Positions 38,156-44,526 of a stretch of 64,000 nucleotides of DNA are shown in pieces (positions within the stretch are counted from its first letter, which is position 1; every line of letters begins with the position of its first letter). The notes under the pieces were generated by a model, which was not told the origin of the DNA, ran no database searches, and worked only from the letters and a program-made list of their open reading frames with translations. The DNA is from Mycobacterium sp. Root265 (lineage in GTDB: Bacteria; Actinomycetota; Actinomycetes; Mycobacteriales; Mycobacteriaceae). The stretch covers positions 311,150 through 375,149 of the forward strand of contig NZ_LMJA01000001.1 of the NCBI RefSeq assembly GCF_001428895.1, in the 5' to 3' direction. A program made the translations under genes and the position numbers.

Positions 38156-39588
38156 CCCGGCTGCTGTGGGTGCTGGCCCTGATCGCCTGCGTGGCCGGCT
38201 GCAGCACCCCGGACAAGGAACCCGAAGCGGCACCGCCGGGCACCACGGCCCCGCAGGAACAGCCGGTGGACCTCGATCAGCTCCGCGCCATCGCCAAGGA
38301 CGCCTACATCTACGGGTTCCCGATGGTGGACAACTACCGGGTCCAGTACGCCTACTTCGTGGACAAGCAGAACCCCGAATACAAGGGCGGATGGAACGAG
38401 ATCCACAACACCGCCCGGGTCTACACACCCGCCGACACGGCCATCCAGACACCGAACTCGGACACCCCGTACTCCGCCGTCGGCGCCGATCTGCGCGCCG
38501 AACCGCTGGTCCTCACGGTGCCGCCGATCGAACAGGACCGCTACTACTCGCTGCAGTTCGTCGACGGCTACACCAGCAATTTCGCCTATGTGGGCAGCCG
38601 GACCACCGGCAACGGCGGCGGGCGATACCTGCTCGCCGGTCCGGGCTGGCAGGGCGAGAAGCCCGAGGGCATCGACGAGGTGATCCGTTCGGACACCGAC
38701 CTGGCGTTCGTGCTGTACCGCACCCAGCTGTTCGGGCCGTCCGATCTGGAGAACGTGAAGAAGATCCAGGCCGGCTACCAGGTGGCGCCGCTGTCGGTGT
38801 TCCTGAACCAGCCGTCGCCCGCCCCCGCGCCGGCGATCGACTTCGTGCCACCGCTGACCCCGGATCAACAGCGCACCTCCCCGCAGTTCTTCGAAATCCT
38901 CAACTTCGTCATGAAGTTCACCCCGGCACTGCCCGAGGAGCAGGCGCTCCGGGACCGGTTCGCCCAGATCGGCATCGGCGCCGACGGAGATTTCGACGCC
39001 GACGAGCTGACCCCCGAAGCGCGCGAGGCAATCGTGAGCGCCATGGCCGACGCCAACACCGAGCTCGCCGACTTCACCAAAAACGAGATCGACACCGGCA
39101 AGGTCACCTCCGCCCAGCTGTTCGGCACCCGCCAGGAACTCAAGGGCAACTACCTGTACCGGATGGCCGGTGCGGCGCTGGGCATCTACGGGAACACCGC
39201 CGCCGAGGCCATCTATCCCGTCGCCGCGAAGGATTCCGCGGGCGCACCGCTGACCGGTGCGGGGGAGTACACCTACCGGTTCGCACCCGATCAGCTGCCC
39301 CCGGTGAACGCGTTCTGGTCGCTGACCATGTACGAGCTGCCCGCCAGCCAACTCGTGCAGAATCCGCTCAACCGGTACCTGATCAATTCGGCGATGCTGC
39401 CCAACCTGAAGGCCGACCCGGACGGCGGCTACACCCTGCGCATCCAGCGCGATTCGCCAGGACCGGACCAGGAGTCCAACTGGCTGCCCGCTCCGGAGGG
39501 ACCGTTCACCCTGATACTGCGGCTGTACTGGCCCAAGCCGGACGCGCTGAACGGCACCTGGAAGGCACCAGTGCCGGCGAAGGTCTAG
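38152..39588 (+). CDS. DUF1254/DUF1214 lipoprotein
   Basis: A 478-residue secreted lipoprotein with signal MTRLLWVLALIACVAGC (lipobox VAGC, Cys17). The DUF1254 domain (AYIYGFPMVDNYRVQYAYF, TPNSDTPYSAVG) comes first and DUF1214 (NAFWSLTMYELPASQLVQNP, LRLYWPKPDALNGTW) last. Such proteins are widespread cell-envelope proteins of unknown function. Its GTG overlaps the SDR stop as GTGA, so it is coupled to it. It has no counterpart at this place in the M. tuberculosis order as I recall it. Its TAG shares CTAG with the convergent PAC2 gene. Confidence 0.88.
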   Translation: MTRLLWVLALIACVAGCSTPDKEPEAAPPGTTAPQEQPVDLDQLRAIAKDAYIYGFPMVDNYRVQYAYFVDKQNPEYKGGWNEIHNTARVYTPADTAIQTPNSDTPYSAVGADLRAEPLVLTVPPIEQDRYYSLQFVDGYTSNFAYVGSRTTGNGGGRYLLAGPGWQGEKPEGIDEVIRSDTDLAFVLYRTQLFGPSDLENVKKIQAGYQVAPLSVFLNQPSPAPAPAIDFVPPLTPDQQRTSPQFFEILNFVMKFTPALPEEQALRDRFAQIGIGADGDFDADELTPEAREAIVSAMADANTELADFTKNEIDTGKVTSAQLFGTRQELKGNYLYRMAGAALGIYGNTAAEAIYPVAAKDSAGAPLTGAGEYTYRFAPDQLPPVNAFWSLTMYELPASQLVQNPLNRYLINSAMLPNLKADPDGGYTLRIQRDSPGPDQESNWLPAPEGPFTLILRLYWPKPDALNGTWKAPVPAKV

Positions 39589-40454
39589 CGGCCCCGCCTG
39601 CGCAGATACCGCTCGAATTCGGCGGCCAAGGCGTCCCCGTCGATCTTGGCGACCGCCTCGTTCATGTCGACCTCGGCGTCGCCGCGTTCCTCCAGGGACT
39701 GCACGTACTCGGCGATCTCCTCGTCCTCGGCGGTCATCTCGGTGACCGCCTCCTCCCACTCCTCGGCCGCGGTCGGCAGGTCGGCCAGCGGGACCTCGAT
39801 GTCGAGAACGTCCTCGACGCGGCGCAGCAGCGCCACGGTGGCCTTAGGGTTGGGTGGCTGCGACACGTAGTGCGGGACGGCAGCCCAGAACGTCACGGCC
39901 GGGATACCGGCCTGCACACAGGCGTCCTGGAACACCCCGGCGATACCGGTCGGGCCCTCGTAGCGGGTCTCCTCGAGGCCGAAGAACTTCGCCGAGTCCG
40001 ACGAGTAGGCGGCCCCGGATACCGGCACGGGCCGGGTGTGCGGGGTGTCGGCGAGCAGCGCACCCAGGATCACCACGGTGTCGACGTTGAGCTTGTCGGC
40101 GATGGCCAGCAGCTCGGCGCAGAAGGTGCGCCACCGCATGTTGGGCTCGACTCCGTGCATCAGCACGATGTCGCGGTCGCTGCCGGGCGGGCGGCAGTGC
40201 GAGATGCGCATCGACGGCCACACCAATTCGCGGGTGACCCCGTCGATCTGCCGGATGACCGGACGATTCACCTGGTAGTCGTAGTAACTCTCGTCGTCGA
40301 TCTCGACGATGGTCTCGGCCTCCCAGATGGAGTCCAGGTGTTCCAGTGCTCCGCTGGCCGCGTCACCGGCGTCGTTCCAGCCCTCGAAGGCGGCCACGAC
40401 GACTGTGTTCTGCAGGTCCGGCAGGCCGGGCACGCTCGCATCCGACGGTGTCAC
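39585..40454 (-). CDS. PAC2-family protein (Rv2125 orthologue)
   Basis: A 289-residue PAC2-domain protein: VVVAAFEGWNDAGDAASGAL, SRDIVLMHGVEPNMRW-like and GALLADTPHTRPVPVSG segments. The C-terminal 60 residues are strongly acidic and helical (EEWEEAVTEMTAEDEEIAEY). PAC2 proteins are linked to proteasome assembly in eukaryotes; in actinobacteria they co-occur with the Pup-proteasome, but the role is unproven. Rv2125 sits next to metH in the same divergent arrangement. GTG 40454 follows TACGCT (40466-40461) by 6 nt, so it is probably leaderless. Confidence 0.88.
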   Translation of the reverse strand: MTPSDASVPGLPDLQNTVVVAAFEGWNDAGDAASGALEHLDSIWEAETIVEIDDESYYDYQVNRPVIRQIDGVTRELVWPSMRISHCRPPGSDRDIVLMHGVEPNMRWRTFCAELLAIADKLNVDTVVILGALLADTPHTRPVPVSGAAYSSDSAKFFGLEETRYEGPTGIAGVFQDACVQAGIPAVTFWAAVPHYVSQPPNPKATVALLRRVEDVLDIEVPLADLPTAAEEWEEAVTEMTAEDEEIAEYVQSLEERGDAEVDMNEAVAKIDGDALAAEFERYLRRRGR

Positions 40455-40466
40455 ACTGCCAGCGTA

Positions 40467-40658
40467 AGCCCTGCATCGCGGTGATGAGCTGCAGCGGGCC
40501 GCGCGGCGATTTGCCGGCGGATACCCCGCCCCACGGCGGTCACCGCGTCCAGATGAAATACCCTCGGCGACAAGACGGTTGATCGTGGCGACCATGCCAG
40601 TGCCGGCAGATCGATCACAGCCACGAGACGGCGTCCGAAACTCGGTGGAAAGACGACG
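40467..40658. other. Gap between PAC2 gene and the metH promoter, no gene seen
   Basis: Upstream part of the 307-bp divergent gap between the PAC2 gene and metH. Both frames here end quickly, and I find no small gene, repeat or convincing operator. The remainder of the gap (from 40659) holds the metH promoter, the riboswitch and its expression platform. Confidence 0.6.
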
Positions 40659-40664
40659 TAGACT
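40659..40664 (+). promoter_or_regulatory. -10 element of metH
   Basis: TAGACT fits TANNNT. With the usual 6-7 nt spacing, the RNA would begin at G40671, which is exactly the first base of the predicted aptamer pseudoknot. That agreement between two independent readings supports both. Confidence 0.6.
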
Positions 40665-40670
40665 TTTCTG

Positions 40671-40740
40671 GTCGAGAGGCGTTGCAACGGATCCGGGTAC
40701 CACCGGGGTCCGCCACGCTCGGCAGAGTTAAGGACGCCTT
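40671..40740 (+). ncRNA. Probable S-adenosylhomocysteine riboswitch upstream of metH
   Basis: The order of elements is that of the SAH aptamer. P1 is AGGCGT (40677-40682) with ACGCCT (40734-40739). The conserved TGCAA follows P1. P2 is CGGATCC (40688-40694) with GGGTCCG (40706-40712). Then come CCACGCTCGG and a pseudoknot GTCGAG (40671-40676) with CTCGGC (40718-40723). The family form reads CCAGGCUCG and has CG before the 3' strand of P1; here the two G-to-C and C-to-G changes could compensate each other. SAH riboswitches are known before metH, ahcY and metF and act as ON switches. Found by eye; no covariance search was run. Confidence 0.75.
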
Positions 40741-40753
40741 CCGCTACGGAAGG
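40737..40753 (+). promoter_or_regulatory. Hairpin burying the metH ribosome binding site
   Basis: CCTTCCG (40737-40743) pairs perfectly with CGGAAGG (40747-40753), closing over CTA. The 3' arm contains most of the GGAAGGAG ribosome site (40748-40755) of metH. The 5' CCT (40737-40739) is also the end of aptamer P1, so P1 and this hairpin exclude each other: ligand-bound P1 would free the ribosome site. This predicts translational activation by SAH. Confidence 0.7.
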
Positions 40754-40761
40754 AGTGCCCT

Positions 40762-43700
40762 GTGAACGCCGCGAAATCGGACGTCTCTGCGCCGGACACC
40801 TTTGTGCCGAACATCCGCCCCGACTGCACCGACGAACTGACCGCCGCGCTGCGCGGGCGGATCATGGTGATCGACGGCGCGATGGGCACGGCGATCCAGC
40901 GCGACCGGCCCGACGAGGCCGGATACCGCGGCGACCGGTTCACGGAGTGGCCGACCGCGCTGCAGGGCAACAACGACCTGCTCACCCTGACGCAACCGCA
41001 GATCATCGAGGCGATCCACCGCGAATACCTCGAGGCGGGTGCGGACATCCTGGAGACCAACACGTTCAATGCGAACGCGGTCTCGCTGTCCGACTACGAC
41101 ATGGCGGACCTGAGCTATGAGCTGAACTACGCCGGCGCTGCCCTGGCCCGCACAGCAGCTGACGAGTTCAGCACCCCGGACAAGCCCCGCTACGTGGCGG
41201 GCGCGCTGGGGCCGACGACGCGGACCGCGTCGATCTCGCCGGACGTCAACGACCCCGGAGCCCGCAACGTCTCCTACGACCAGCTGGTCGCCGCCTACCT
41301 CGAGGCCGCCAACGGCCTGGTCGACGGTGGATCCGACATCATCATCGTCGAGACGATCTTCGACTCGCTGAACTCGAAGGCCGCGGTGTTCGCCATCGAG
41401 ACGCTCTTCGAGGAGCGCGGACGCCGCTGGCCGGTCATCATCTCGGGCACCATCACCGATGCCTCGGGGCGGACGCTGTCCGGCCAGGTCACCGAGGCGT
41501 TCTGGAACGCGATCAGGCATGCGAAGCCGCTCGCGGTGGGTCTCAACTGCGCCCTGGGTGCGCCGGAGATGAGGCCCTACATCGCCGAGGTGGCGCGGAT
41601 CGCGGACACCTTCGTCTCCTGCTACCCGAACGCCGGCCTGCCCAACGCCTTCGGTGAGTACGACGAATCCCCGGAGGCCCAGGCCGGCTACATCAAGGAG
41701 TTCGCCGAGGCCGGCCTGGTCAACCTGGTCGGTGGGTGCTGCGGAACGGCGCCGCCGCACATCGCCGAGATCGCCAAGGTCGTCGAGCGCGTGGCACCGC
41801 GCACATTGCCGGAGATCCCGGTGGCCACCCGGCTCTCGGGCCTGGAGCCGCTCAACATCACCGACGGCTCGCTGTTCGTGAACATCGGTGAGCGCACCAA
41901 CATCACCGGCTCCGCCCGGTTCCGCAACCTGATCAAGGCCGAGGACTACGACAGCGCCCTGTCGGTGGCCCTGCAGCAGGTCGAGGTCGGTGCGCAGGTC
42001 ATCGACATCAACATGGACGAGGGCATGATCGACGGCGTTGCCGCGATGGACCGGTTCACCAAGCTGATCGCGTCCGAGCCGGACATCAGTCGCGTCCCGG
42101 TGATGATCGACTCCTCCAAGTGGGAGGTCATCGAGGCGGGCCTGAAGAACGTGCAGGGCAAGCCCATCGTCAACTCGATCTCCATGAAGGAGGGCGAGGA
42201 GAAGTTCGTCCGCGAGGCCCGGTTGTGCCGCAAGTACGGCGCTGCCGTCGTCGTGATGGCCTTCGACGAGCAGGGGCAGGCCGACAACCTGGAGCGCCGC
42301 AAGGAGATCTGCGGGCGTGCCTACAAGATCTTGACCGAAGAGGTCGGTTTCCCGGCCGAGGACATCATCTTCGACCCGAACTGCTTCGCACTGGCCACCG
42401 GTATCGAGGAGCACGCGACCTACGGGATCGACTTCATCGAGGCGTGCGCCTGGATCAAGGAGAACCTGCCCGGGGTGCACATCTCCGGCGGCATCTCCAA
42501 CGTCTCGTTCTCGTTCCGCGGCAACAACCCTGTGCGCGAGGCGATCCACGCGGTGTTCCTGTTCCACGCCATCAAGGCGGGCCTGGACATGGGCATCGTC
42601 AACGCCGGCGCGCTCGTGCCCTACGACTCGATCGATCCCGAGCTGCGGGACCGGATCGAGGACGTGGTGCTGAACCGTCGCGCGGACGCGGCCGAACGGC
42701 TGTTGGAGATCGCGGAGCGGTTCAACAGTTCCGAGAAGGCCGACGATCCGGTGGCCGCGGAATGGCGCAGCTTGCCGGTGCGCGAGCGGATCACGCATGC
42801 TCTGGTCAAAGGCATCGACGCCGATGTCGACGCCGACACCGAGGAACTGCGGGCCGAGATCGAGGGCGCCGGAGGGCGGCCGATCGAGGTGATCGAGGGT
42901 CCGCTGATGGACGGCATGAACGTCGTCGGCGACCTGTTCGGCGCGGGCAAGATGTTCCTGCCCCAGGTGGTGAAGTCGGCGCGGGTGATGAAGAAGGCCG
43001 TTGCCTACCTGCTTCCGTACATCGAGGCCGAGAAGGAGCAGAACGGCACCACAGCGGCCAAGGACACCAACGGCACGATCATCATGGCGACGGTCAAGGG
43101 CGATGTCCACGACATCGGCAAGAACATCGTCGGGGTCGTGCTGCAGTGCAACAACTACGAGGTGATCGACCTCGGGGTGATGGTGCCTGCCCAGAAGATC
43201 CTGGACGCGGCCAAGGAGCACAACGCCGACATCATCGGGCTGTCCGGCCTGATCACCCCGTCCCTGGACGAGATGGTCAACTTCGCCGTCGAGATGGAGC
43301 GCCAAGGCCTGGAGATCCCGCTGCTGATCGGCGGGGCGACCACATCGCGCGCCCACACCGCGGTGAAGGTGTCGCCGCGTCGCAGCGGTCCGGTGGTGTG
43401 GGTCAAGGACGCGTCCCGCTCGGTGCCGGTCGCCGCGGCGCTACTGGACGACAAGCAGCGGCCGGCCCTGCTGGAGGCCACCGAGAAGGATTACGCGTCG
43501 CTGCGCGAGAGGCACGCCCAGAAGAGCGAGCGGCCGATGCTGACGCTGGAGAAGGCGCGCGCCAACCGGACGCCGATCGAGTGGGACGGCTACACCCCGC
43601 CGGTACCCGCGCAGGGTCTCGGCGTGCGCGAATTCCTGGACTATGACCTCGCCGAGCTGCGCGAGTACATCGACTGGCAGCCGTTCTTCAACGCCTGGGA

Positions 43701-44526
43701 GATGAAGGGCCGCTTCCCCGACATCCTCAACAACCCGGTCTCCGGCGAGACAGCCCGCAAGCTGTACGACGACGCCCAGGAGATGCTCGACACCCTGATC
43801 AAGGAGAAGTGGCTGACCGCCAACGGGGTGATCGGCTTCTTCCCGGCGAACGCCGTGGGCGACGACATCGAGGTCTACACCGATGAGACCCGCACCGAGG
43901 TGAAGACGAAACTGTTCAACCTGCGCCAGCAGGGCGAGCACCGAGACGGCATCCCCAACCGGTCACTGGGTGACTTCGTCGCACCCAAAGAGACTGGAGC
44001 CGCCGATTTCATTGGCGCCTTCGCCGTCACCACCGGGCTCGGCAGCGGTGACAAGATCACCGCGTTCAAGGCCGACAACGACGACTACAGCGCGATCCTG
44101 CTGGAGTCGCTCGCCGACCGGCTGGCCGAGGCGTTCGCCGAACGGATGCACCAGCGGGTCCGCAAGGAGTTCTGGGGATTCCAGCCCGACGAGCAGCTCG
44201 ACAACGAGGCGCTGATCGCGGAGAAGTACCGGGGAATCCGCCCGGCGCCCGGCTACCCGGCCTGCCCGGAACACACCGAGAAGGCGACGCTCTGGGAGCT
44301 GATGGACGTCAAGGAGCGCACCGGCATCGAACTCACCGAGTCGATGGCGATGTGGCCCGGCGCCGCCGTCAGTGGCTGGTACTTCAGCCACCCGCAGTCG
44401 CAGTACTTCGTGGTCGGCCGGATGGCCCAGGATCAGGTCGCCGACTACGCCAAGCGCAAGGGCTGGACGCTGCAGGAAGCCGAGCGCTGGCTCGGACCCA
44501 ACCTCGGTTACAACCCGGAGGATTGA
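40762..44526 (+). CDS. metH: Cobalamin-dependent methionine synthase
   Basis: Transfers the methyl group of methyl-tetrahydrofolate to homocysteine through cobalamin. The 1254-residue cytosolic enzyme has all four modules: homocysteine domain with zinc cysteines ([17 protein letters not shown], to about 340); pterin-binding barrel (about 360-620); cobalamin domain with the ligand histidine in [13 protein letters not shown] (near 785); and the AdoMet reactivation domain with [15 protein letters not shown] (near 1160). GTG 40762 follows GGAAGGAG. Control is probably by the SAH riboswitch just upstream. It ends 3 bp from the convergent NmrA gene. Confidence 0.96.

Follow-up and report, generated by a model that had tools for sequence, protein, structure and literature searches.

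The stretch of DNA analysed here (the window) comprises 64,000 nucleotides of Mycobacterium sp. Root265. On its forward strand, the gene for the B12-dependent methionine synthase, metH, is preceded by an SAH-riboswitch aptamer at positions 40671–40739, which confirms an earlier observation (Table 1). The helices follow the order P1, P2, pseudoknot, the conserved core is present, and the adenine-contacting residues G15, C16 and A29 are all found in the window sequence. We take G40684 to be G15 and C40685 to be C16 of the solved aptamer, in the numbering of the crystal construct and with the register set by the residues named in the literature. Each element described in the original prediction, which was made from the sequence alone, is there in its place; only its helix names were exchanged, the outer helix (40671–40676/40718–40723) being P1 according to the Rfam structure line and PMC7357161. 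This exchange leaves the proposed mechanism unaffected.

Table 1. Features of the metH leader and gene, in window coordinates
Feature	Position	Strand	Basis or remark
−10 element TAGACT	40659–40664	+	sequence; predicted transcription start close to the first aptamer base
Outer helix, 5′ strand (P1 in the literature; "pseudoknot" in the original prediction)	40671–40676	+	pairs with 40718–40723; RF01057 alignment
Pseudoknot helix, 5′ strand ("P1" in the original prediction)	40677–40682	+	pairs with 40734–40739
Conserved UGCAA (TGCAA in DNA)	40683–40687	+	in 101/101 orthologous metH leaders; the search pattern itself required UGCAA, and no leader failed
P2, 5′ strand	40688–40694	+	pairs with 40706–40712
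P2, 3′ strand	40706–40712	+	pairs with 40688–40694
CCACGCTCGG	40713–40722	+	sequence
Core CCACG	40713–40717	+	A40715 is A29; C40716 is position 30
Outer helix, 3′ strand (P1 in the literature)	40718–40723	+	sequence and RF01057 alignment
Core AAGG	40730–40733	+	G40732 is position 46
Pseudoknot helix, 3′ strand	40734–40739	+	last three bases also belong to the anti-SD strand, at its 5′ end
Anti-SD strand of the RBS hairpin	40737–40743	+	pairs with 40747–40753
RBS hairpin, 3′ strand, holding most of the SD	40747–40753	+	sequence
Shine-Dalgarno (SD) GGAAGGAG of metH	40748–40755	+	predicted to be paired in the free leader and partly released once the aptamer strands are taken
metH, B12-dependent methionine synthase, 1254 aa	40762–44526	+	start GTG at 40762; TIGR02082, 1727 bits (cut-off 1010.85)

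Covariance-model matches and conservation

A covariance-model search, the first check named with the original prediction, gives a full-length match to RF01057 that is sub-threshold yet significant: 28.9 bits (E 0.0014), end to end over model positions 1–78, when a 401-base stretch is compared with all 4227 families. Over the 6.67-Mb genome the metH leader has an E-value of 0.0056, and the next best place one of 9.47. The Rfam gathering score for RF01057 is 37 bits, which is a curation threshold and no biological property. Because the leader scores below it (28.9 versus 37), standard annotation is silent, and an Rfam scan of the whole window at gathering does not list the aptamer. At E≤0.1, RF01057 matches 98 of 118 genomes of the genus versus 0 of 14 control genomes; none of the 118 exceeds the gathering score. 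The same variant does pass it in three of six other actinobacterial genomes searched (39.7, 39.5 and 38.1 bits). At E≤10, sub-threshold matches appear in 10 of the 14 controls, so weak RF01057 matches are meaningless by themselves. The SAM/SAH riboswitch model RF01727 has no match in 40500–40900 at E≤1.

The aptamer core is kept in all 101 orthologous mycobacterial metH leaders examined, which makes a chance origin untenable; L069, whose contig ends 84 bases past the match, and L121 are excluded from this number, metH being absent from the fetched stretch. It could still be imagined that the leader is a conserved hairpin that merely lowers or thermally tunes metH translation, its likeness to an SAH aptamer being an accident or a relic. 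The SD hairpin is indeed predicted to be stable on its own (−10.1 kcal/mol for the 20-mer, folding model), but UGCAA, CCACG and AAGG play no role in it and are nonetheless invariant in 97 distinct mycobacterial leaders. The same core also recurs in other families, before ahcY as well, and we find this explanation scarcely credible. The first three pairs of P2 are intact in 104/104 distinct mycobacterial sequences, and its outer pairs vary on both sides.

Beyond the genus, a model of the mycobacterial leader matches 17 of 137 sampled genera of class Actinomycetes, mostly before metH and sometimes before ahcY. In other actinobacterial genera the pseudoknot shows compensatory changes, the second thing to be looked for in related leaders: pair 13-48 occurs as U-A or C-G (40682/40734) and pair 9-52 as G-C or A-U (40678/40738). 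For the whole structure across actinobacterial genera, nine pairs change on both sides versus 5.1 in shuffles, and the covariation score is 0.215 versus 0.118 for shuffled and at most 0.085 for slid alignments. Within Mycobacterium there is no such excess (4 pairs versus 4.4 in shuffles). The pseudoknot helix hardly varies there (a single U-G among 104 distinct sequences), and all of its covariation is therefore contributed by the other genera.

Several weaker matches were rejected. Second RF01057 matches within the genus (L002 and L130–L137) were treated as chance, with metH near 0 of 9; ORFs are listed for three of the eight loci L130–L137, and these are unrelated reading frames spanning the matched stretch. 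On inspection by eye, the core is missing from L312 and from two matches outside class Actinomycetes (G913 and G771). As to a possible phage or viral origin, 15 pattern matches in viral_contigs were inspected by eye, and in none do the 75 bases shown include the pseudoknot strand. The second pair of the outer helix is seen as U-G, U-A or C-G. Separately, the variants UGCGA and UGCAG of UGCAA occur.

The inverted core positions and the ligand

Unlike proteobacterial sequences, the window carries C40716 at position 30 and G40732 at position 46, a point absent from the original prediction. Positions 30/46 are C/G in 186/186 accepted actinobacterial loci and G/C in 131/131 accepted others, counted after matches judged to be chance had been dropped, two of which (L236 and L139) would be exceptions to this clade rule if kept, while a third (L256) fits neither state. 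The dropped matches were L139 (SAR324; C/C) and L194 (Reyranella; G/C), judged by eye, together with two of the 39 loci parsed last, L236 (G/C; titled Actinomycetes; scoring 13.0) and L256 (G/G; Devosia; scoring 12.7), both with weak helices and with neither metH nor ahcY nearby. Removal of L139 and L194 leaves 108 proteobacterial-type loci. A 119-locus set was parsed as 80 plus 39 loci, and the last 39 agreed with the first 80; seven loci missed by the parser are all G30/C46 by eye. Amycolatopsis and Kribbella (L157, L185) provide examples of C30/G46 aptamers, and the proteobacterium Nitrococcus (L148) one of a G30/C46 aptamer. As judged from these alignments, C30/G46 is the mark of an actinobacterial variant of the SAH aptamer, in which positions 30 and 46 presumably pair. 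We file the leader as a variant and not as a plain member of RF01057 because C46 with G30 is replaced by G46 with C30.

In the Ralstonia structure, C46 contacts the tail of SAH; A29 stacks on the ligand adenine, which is contacted by G15, C16 and A29 (PMC7057144). The clade-separating difference thus falls on the tail contact, C46 in the solved structure being G in every accepted actinobacterial locus. This raises the idea that the RNA descends from SAH-class aptamers but, through its inverted core, now recognises something else, such as adenosine or a different adenosyl compound. Its targets do include one adenosine deaminase, among the 59 non-mycobacterial actinobacterial loci, and one methyltransferase. 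However, of the two genes sought, metH is nearest at 50 and ahcY at 5 of those 59, both being SAH-recycling genes associated with the known class, and metH is the nearer of these two at 113/113 mycobacterial loci. The adenine contacts are also retained: 109 loci found by covariance models went to a parser that requires G15, C16 and A29, seven of the eight that it left unparsed keep all three by eye, and the remaining one is a weak, chance-like match. In the minor groove, moreover, C-G and G-C pairs present acceptors at similar places. Since the binding cleft lies in the minor groove (PMC7057144), this similarity counts against a change of ligand, which we regard as decidedly improbable. The aptamer sits before genes of SAH recycling, and these targets fit SAH, the probable ligand. 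A more ambitious proposal holds that the actinobacterial RNAs are a distinct subclass, in which the inverted 30-46 pair re-forms the tail contact and selectivity for SAH versus SAM, adenosine and methylthioadenosine is measurably unlike that of the proteobacterial class; this seems to us unlikely. The exchange of bases, seen across the clade at a position in contact with the ligand, amounts to a natural experiment on the tolerance of the SAH pocket.

Predicted switching and relation to known systems

The original prediction held that the 3′ strand of the pseudoknot shares bases with a 7-bp hairpin over the SD of metH. The overlap is seen in the sequence and is widely kept. A 6–8 bp SD-covering hairpin starts in this strand in 113/113 parsed mycobacterial loci (shuffles 29%), as does a stem of at least 6 bp in 58 of 59 other actinobacterial loci (shuffles 34%). 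The hairpin arms are nearly invariant, the closing pair being unpaired in 19 of 97 distinct mycobacterial leaders. The proposed −10 element at 40659 is likewise conserved: TAnnnT begins 11–13 nt before the aptamer in 113/113 mycobacterial loci, 104 of which read TAGACT, and transcription probably starts at the aptamer. Terminator-type control was considered too, but the hairpin in the window sequence has no U-run behind it. The eight SD bases have a mean unpaired probability of about 0.13–0.14 in the free leader and of 0.33–0.49 once the aptamer strands are taken (averages of modelled values). In a nested-only model, forcing the pseudoknot gives −41.6 kcal/mol versus −48.7 for the free fold, a deficit of 7.1 kcal/mol that the outer helix and the ligand would have to repay.

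From sequence comparison, we think it highly likely that a variant SAH riboswitch makes up the metH leader and acts as a translational on-switch. Transcription would start at the aptamer and, without ligand, 40737–40743 would pair back onto 40747–40753, burying the SD. As SAH accumulates, C40685 and A40715 would hold it from either side, with G40684 bonding to it. The bound SAH would stabilise the pseudoknot, whose 3′ strand (40734–40739) would pull CCU (40737–40739) out of the SD hairpin. The RBS would then open and MetH would be made, removing homocysteine and allowing SAH breakdown to proceed.

The opposite direction, a real aptamer in which SAH binding closes the RBS, would agree with the modelled bound state, where part of the SD is still paired. 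Against it, 171/172 actinobacterial loci have a stem of 6 bp or longer that starts within the pseudoknot strand, and in 169 its 3′ arm either contains an SD motif or is directly followed by one, so the bound state should be the open state. The characterised class, too, upregulates ahcY (PMC7057144, citing Wang 2008). An off-switch therefore appears very improbable, and SAH probably turns metH on.

RF01057, mostly from Proteobacteria (structures 3NPQ and 3NPN), has in common with the metH leader the helix order, the pseudoknot, the UGC and CANG core, G15/C16/A29, and a place before genes of the SAH-recycling cycle. In 73/108 of its proteobacterial loci, too, a stem of 6 bp or longer starts in the pseudoknot 3′ strand (shuffles 21%). 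It differs in having G30/C46 where the actinobacterial RNAs have C30/G46, the mycobacterial copies being sub-threshold for Rfam, and in its nearest gene, ahcY in 100/108 proteobacterial-type loci versus metH in 113/113 mycobacterial and 50/59 other actinobacterial ones. In addition, the actinobacterial strand common to both helices has an outright anti-SD sequence (CCUUCC or CCUCC), unlike that of RF01057. The SAM/SAH riboswitch likewise binds SAH, but its motif is different and it is found only before metK in Rhodobacterales (PMC2864571).

The original prediction's suggestion that such a switch is new for mycobacterial metH has to be softened. In the survey of Sun et al. (2013), one discussion clause states that SAH riboswitches 'were also identified in Mycobacteriaceae' (PMC3766115); these are very probably the same elements, although that clause gives no target gene, structure, core variant or switching. 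SAH riboswitches before metH have been reported in Comamonadaceae (PMC4239095). A term search of papers on mycobacterial metE and metH returned no mention of SAH control. A survey of non-coding RNAs in mycobacteria that relied on Rfam does not contain 'SAH' in its main text (PMC9569102), as expected if the elements lie under the Rfam cut-off.

The switch splits the mycobacteria: 11 of the 118 genus genomes have, at the same locus, a divergent metH without it, where no other Rfam RNA is found at E≤0.1. The B12 riboswitch of mycobacterial metE also places a methionine synthase under RNA control, with a different ligand and by repression (PMC10924821, PMC8088520). If our reading is correct, mycobacteria with a switched metH place each of their two methionine synthases under an RNA sensor of its own, metE being turned off by B12 and metH turned on by the methylation by-product SAH. 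In the window's own genome, RF00174 lies before a metE gene.

An SAH-class riboswitch upstream of metH

The metH leader of this Mycobacterium carries a real SAH-class riboswitch. On inspection of the sequence, each element named in the original prediction lies at its given position, and the covariance-model hit it called for is obtained: Rfam model RF01057 matches with 28.9 bits (E = 0.0014) over model positions 1–78 of 78. When 40500–40900 is scanned with all Rfam families (cmscan), RF01057 (SAH riboswitch) is the sole match at E ≤ 1. The second-best RF01057 match genome-wide has E = 9.47 (1.15 with our own model). At gathering thresholds, the output for the entire window reports tRNA alone, with no SAH riboswitch. 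Two of the helices had been placed correctly and named the wrong way round: the supposed P1 is the pseudoknot helix and the supposed pseudoknot is P1, because the Rfam structure line and a passage of a review on the Ralstonia structure (PMC7357161) call the outer helix P1.

The gene 3′ of the aptamer is metH, with a TIGR02082 score of 1727 bits and Pfam domains running from homocysteine methyltransferase to B12 activation. Positions are numbered on what we take to be the sequence of the 54-nt crystal construct. Numbers 2–53 refer to that construct, in the register set by G15, C16, A29 and C46 as given in PMC7057144. A PAC2 gene lies divergently. Its longest ORF extends into the aptamer, while the PAC2 homology lies below about 40454; automatic annotation could therefore choose a start that makes the gene wrongly overlap the riboswitch.

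Features in the window and loci discussed individually
Feature	Position	Strand
PAC2 gene	39588-40454	opposite
PAC2, longest ORF	39585-40703	minus
RF01057 match	40668-40746	
P1 (outer helix)	40671-40676/40718-40723	
Pseudoknot helix	40677-40682/40734-40739	
P2	40688-40694/40706-40712	
Position 30	C40716	
Position 46	G40732	
metH	40762-44526	+
L304, before class I methyltransferase gene	G147:C90:63769-63836	
L308, before adenosine deaminase gene	G429:C1:991749-991814	
L351, before MFS transporter gene	G503:C140:20217-20291	
L415, cobalamin riboswitch before metE	G000:C28:430242-430448	

Conservation, covariation and distribution

With E ≤ 0.1 as the limit, RF01057 matches in 98 of 118 genus genomes, always below the Rfam cut-off, and in none of 14 control genomes; at E ≤ 10, sub-threshold matches appear in 10 of the 14 controls. 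An orthologous metH follows 96 of the 98 best matches within the retrieved stretch, the other two being L069, where the contig ends too soon, and L121, with none in its stretch. The 20 genomes lacking a match comprise five with a metH 89–95% identical to that of the window, 11 with a divergent MetH (41–44% identity over the N-terminal 500 residues), two with only weak MetH matches and two with none. The aptamer core is present in all 101 orthologous metH leaders (96 + 5), including the five not detected by RF01057.

No Rfam RNA is found at the 11 divergent-metH loci (L037–L047) at E ≤ 0.1. The same PAC2 gene adjoins all 11 of them and all 34 switched loci compared. The divergent proteins share 35–37% identity with the window's MetH over the aligned length, and six of them share 34–39% with MetH of the window and of 12 switched loci. 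The window's MetH is 53–57% identical to nine non-mycobacterial switched MetH and 73% identical to that of a further switched locus, L149. The simplest reading is an apparent replacement of metH at one locus, with the switch travelling with its own gene. MetH of M. tuberculosis presumably resembles the divergent type.

The compensatory changes anticipated for related metH leaders do exist, mainly across actinobacterial genera. An alignment of 37 actinobacterial sequences has 94.9% of its cells paired, nine pairs changing on both sides (5.1 in shuffles) and a covariation score of 0.215 (shuffles 0.118, slid controls ≤0.085). Pseudoknot pair 13–48 is C-G in 22 rows and U-A in the other 15, namely the 14 mycobacterial ones and Phytoactinopolyspora; pair 9–52 is A-U in two (L196, L205). 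The 101 genus leaders give 97 distinct aligned sequences, in which 92.4% of P1, P2 and SD-hairpin cells pair (slid controls 32–49%) and both-side changes occur in 36 cells (20.4 in shuffles). In these 97, the number of pairs changing on both sides, four, is not over that in shuffles (4.4). The within-genus signal lies in P2 and the closing pair of the SD hairpin (G-C 45, G-U 29, A-U 2, C-G 1, U-G 1, unpaired 19), the SD arms being nearly unvarying. One caveat is that all these counts are inflated by kinship and that the structure was partly drawn from the same sequences, for which the slid controls are a partial guard.

A pattern scan of GTDB species genomes, with position 30 left free, returned at least 119 stretches, 80 of which comprise 12 mycobacterial, 24 other actinobacterial and 44 others, nearly all titled Proteobacteria. 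Amycolatopsis, Frankia, Kribbella, Actinoplanes, Lentzea and others are among the actinobacterial matches listed. L193, titled 'uncultured actinobacterium', was counted as mycobacterial; its metH is 89% identical. Of 394 genomes in the class, 74 match R1, a covariance model built from the 37 actinobacterial aptamers; the matches fall in 17 of 137 genera, including that of the window. Across the phylum R1 matches in 12 of 396 genomes, 10 in the window's own family and two without the core by eye. RF01057 matches in 74 of 185 genomes in the class of a Ralstonia genome, every one over the cut-off.

A swap at positions 30 and 46

Loci were parsed by helix complementarity and the required UGC, A29 and G31; bases 30 and 46 were not used. 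C30/G46 is found in all 101 genus loci, 12 of 12 named mycobacterial and 24 of 24 named actinobacterial loci, and 35 of 36 from the class search and separately searched genomes. Two of those 36 came from the latter. The class search had 51 places beyond the genus, of which 34 were used and 17 were not; the exception, L312, is among the 34 and did not parse. G30/C46 is found in 42 of 42 named others (41 titled Proteobacteria, one 'Bacterium') after L139 and L194 were discarded from the counts as chance matches. It is also found in 66 of 73 loci from the Ralstonia-class search (69 of 79 places) and separately searched genomes (4); the remaining seven are likewise G30/C46 by eye. In a fresh test on 39 further pattern loci, C/G occurs in 14 of 15 with actinobacterial titles and G/C in 23 of 24 others, one of the 23 titled Holophagaceae. 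The exceptions, L236 and L256, were discarded as chance matches, being weak and without metH or ahcY. The 280 loci parsed before the fresh set represent 260 distinct sequences, some places having been reached twice. Among these, C/G holds in 104/104 mycobacterial and 52/52 other actinobacterial sequences and G/C in 104/104 others, counts in which weak exceptions could be hidden, as each search model favours the bases of the clade behind it (C/G for R1, presumably G/C for RF01057).

The pattern suggests that positions 30 and 46 form a base pair, which is not proven, since the swap amounts to one fixed difference between two clades. C-G and G-C pairs place their minor-groove acceptors similarly, which would explain tolerance of the flip. 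In a molecular dynamics study of 3NPQ (PMC7057144), the SAH adenine is sandwiched by C16 and A29 and bonded to G15, and the ligand's tail contacts C46 in a minor-groove cleft; because C46 meets the tail, the variation falls on a ligand contact. As judged by sequence comparison, the aptamer is a clade-wide actinobacterial variant with bases swapped at this contact.

The kind of RNA is known. The original prediction was unaware of such a switch at a mycobacterial metH, and that target was indeed not found in the literature searched; SAH riboswitches in Mycobacteriaceae had already been reported in passing, in one sentence of PMC3766115. Proteobacterial SAH regulons, with metH among them in Comamonadaceae, are described in PMC4239095. 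A term search of the available text of mycobacterial papers PMC8088520, PMC10924821, PMC9569102, PMC6582537 and PMC11260477 found no 'SAH'. The inverted positions are likewise undescribed in the literature searched; the papers that founded the class, Wang 2008, Weinberg 2007 and Edwards 2010, lie outside it and may contain actinobacterial examples. Within that scope, what appears to be new is the switch's anatomy, its target, its distribution and the variant pocket.

Probable switch architecture and target genes

A stem of at least 6 bp starting within the pseudoknot 3′ strand is present in 113/113 mycobacterial and 58/59 other actinobacterial loci (29% and 34% in dinucleotide shuffles of the downstream stretch), and in 13/14 of the fresh actinobacterial set. 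In 112 mycobacterial and 57 other actinobacterial loci, an SD motif falls within the 3′ arm of the stem or just past it. Non-actinobacterial loci have the stem in 73/108 (shuffles 21%) and the searched SD motif in only 6/108. The stem arms co-vary between genera (CCUUCC/GGAAGG, CCUCCC/GGGAGG). The stem is missing from two ahcY leaders of Actinomycetospora, L138 and L245, which keep the C30/G46 aptamer with a stem of 5 bp at best; their expression platform may differ. In the predicted fold of the window's free leader the SD is buried. Averaged over its eight bases, the probability of being unpaired climbs from 0.13–0.14 to 0.33–0.49 when the aptamer strands are unavailable, varying with folded length. 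The predicted opening is incomplete: in two of three folded lengths a 4-bp hairpin is left over. In a nested-only model, imposing the pseudoknot helix by itself carries a penalty of 7.1 kcal/mol. A −10 hexamer starts 11–13 nt upstream of the aptamer in 113/113 mycobacterial loci. The metH leader is very probably an SAH-on translational switch.

Targets were searched as metH and ahcY only, within 2600 bases. The nearest is metH at all 113 mycobacterial loci. The 59 other actinobacterial loci give metH 50, ahcY 5 and neither 4 (L156, at a contig end, and L304, L308 and L351, described below), and the 108 other loci ahcY 100, metH 4 and neither 4. At L301 the distance to ahcY is 918 nt. In the fresh set, 14 actinobacterial loci give metH 13 and ahcY 1, and 23 others ahcY 21 and neither 2. 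SAH fits as the ligand, because the RNA stands before metH and ahcY. Of the three cobalamin riboswitches in the window's genome, one precedes metE, which places metE and metH under different RNA elements.

Variant aptamers also precede other genes. L304, in the window's family, combines one with an anti-SD hairpin upstream of a gene for a class I methyltransferase, which one would not expect to be controlled by a sensor of a methylation by-product. At L308 the downstream gene encodes adenosine deaminase, an enzyme that would clear the second product formed when SAH is hydrolysed. L351, upstream of an MFS transporter gene, is a second copy in the Actinoplanes genome that gave L160; the other copy there precedes ahcY. 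In L225, from a MAG titled Propionibacteriales, the leader is of mycobacterial type and metH shares 90% identity with that of the window; either the MAG is mislabelled or switch and metH were transferred as a unit.
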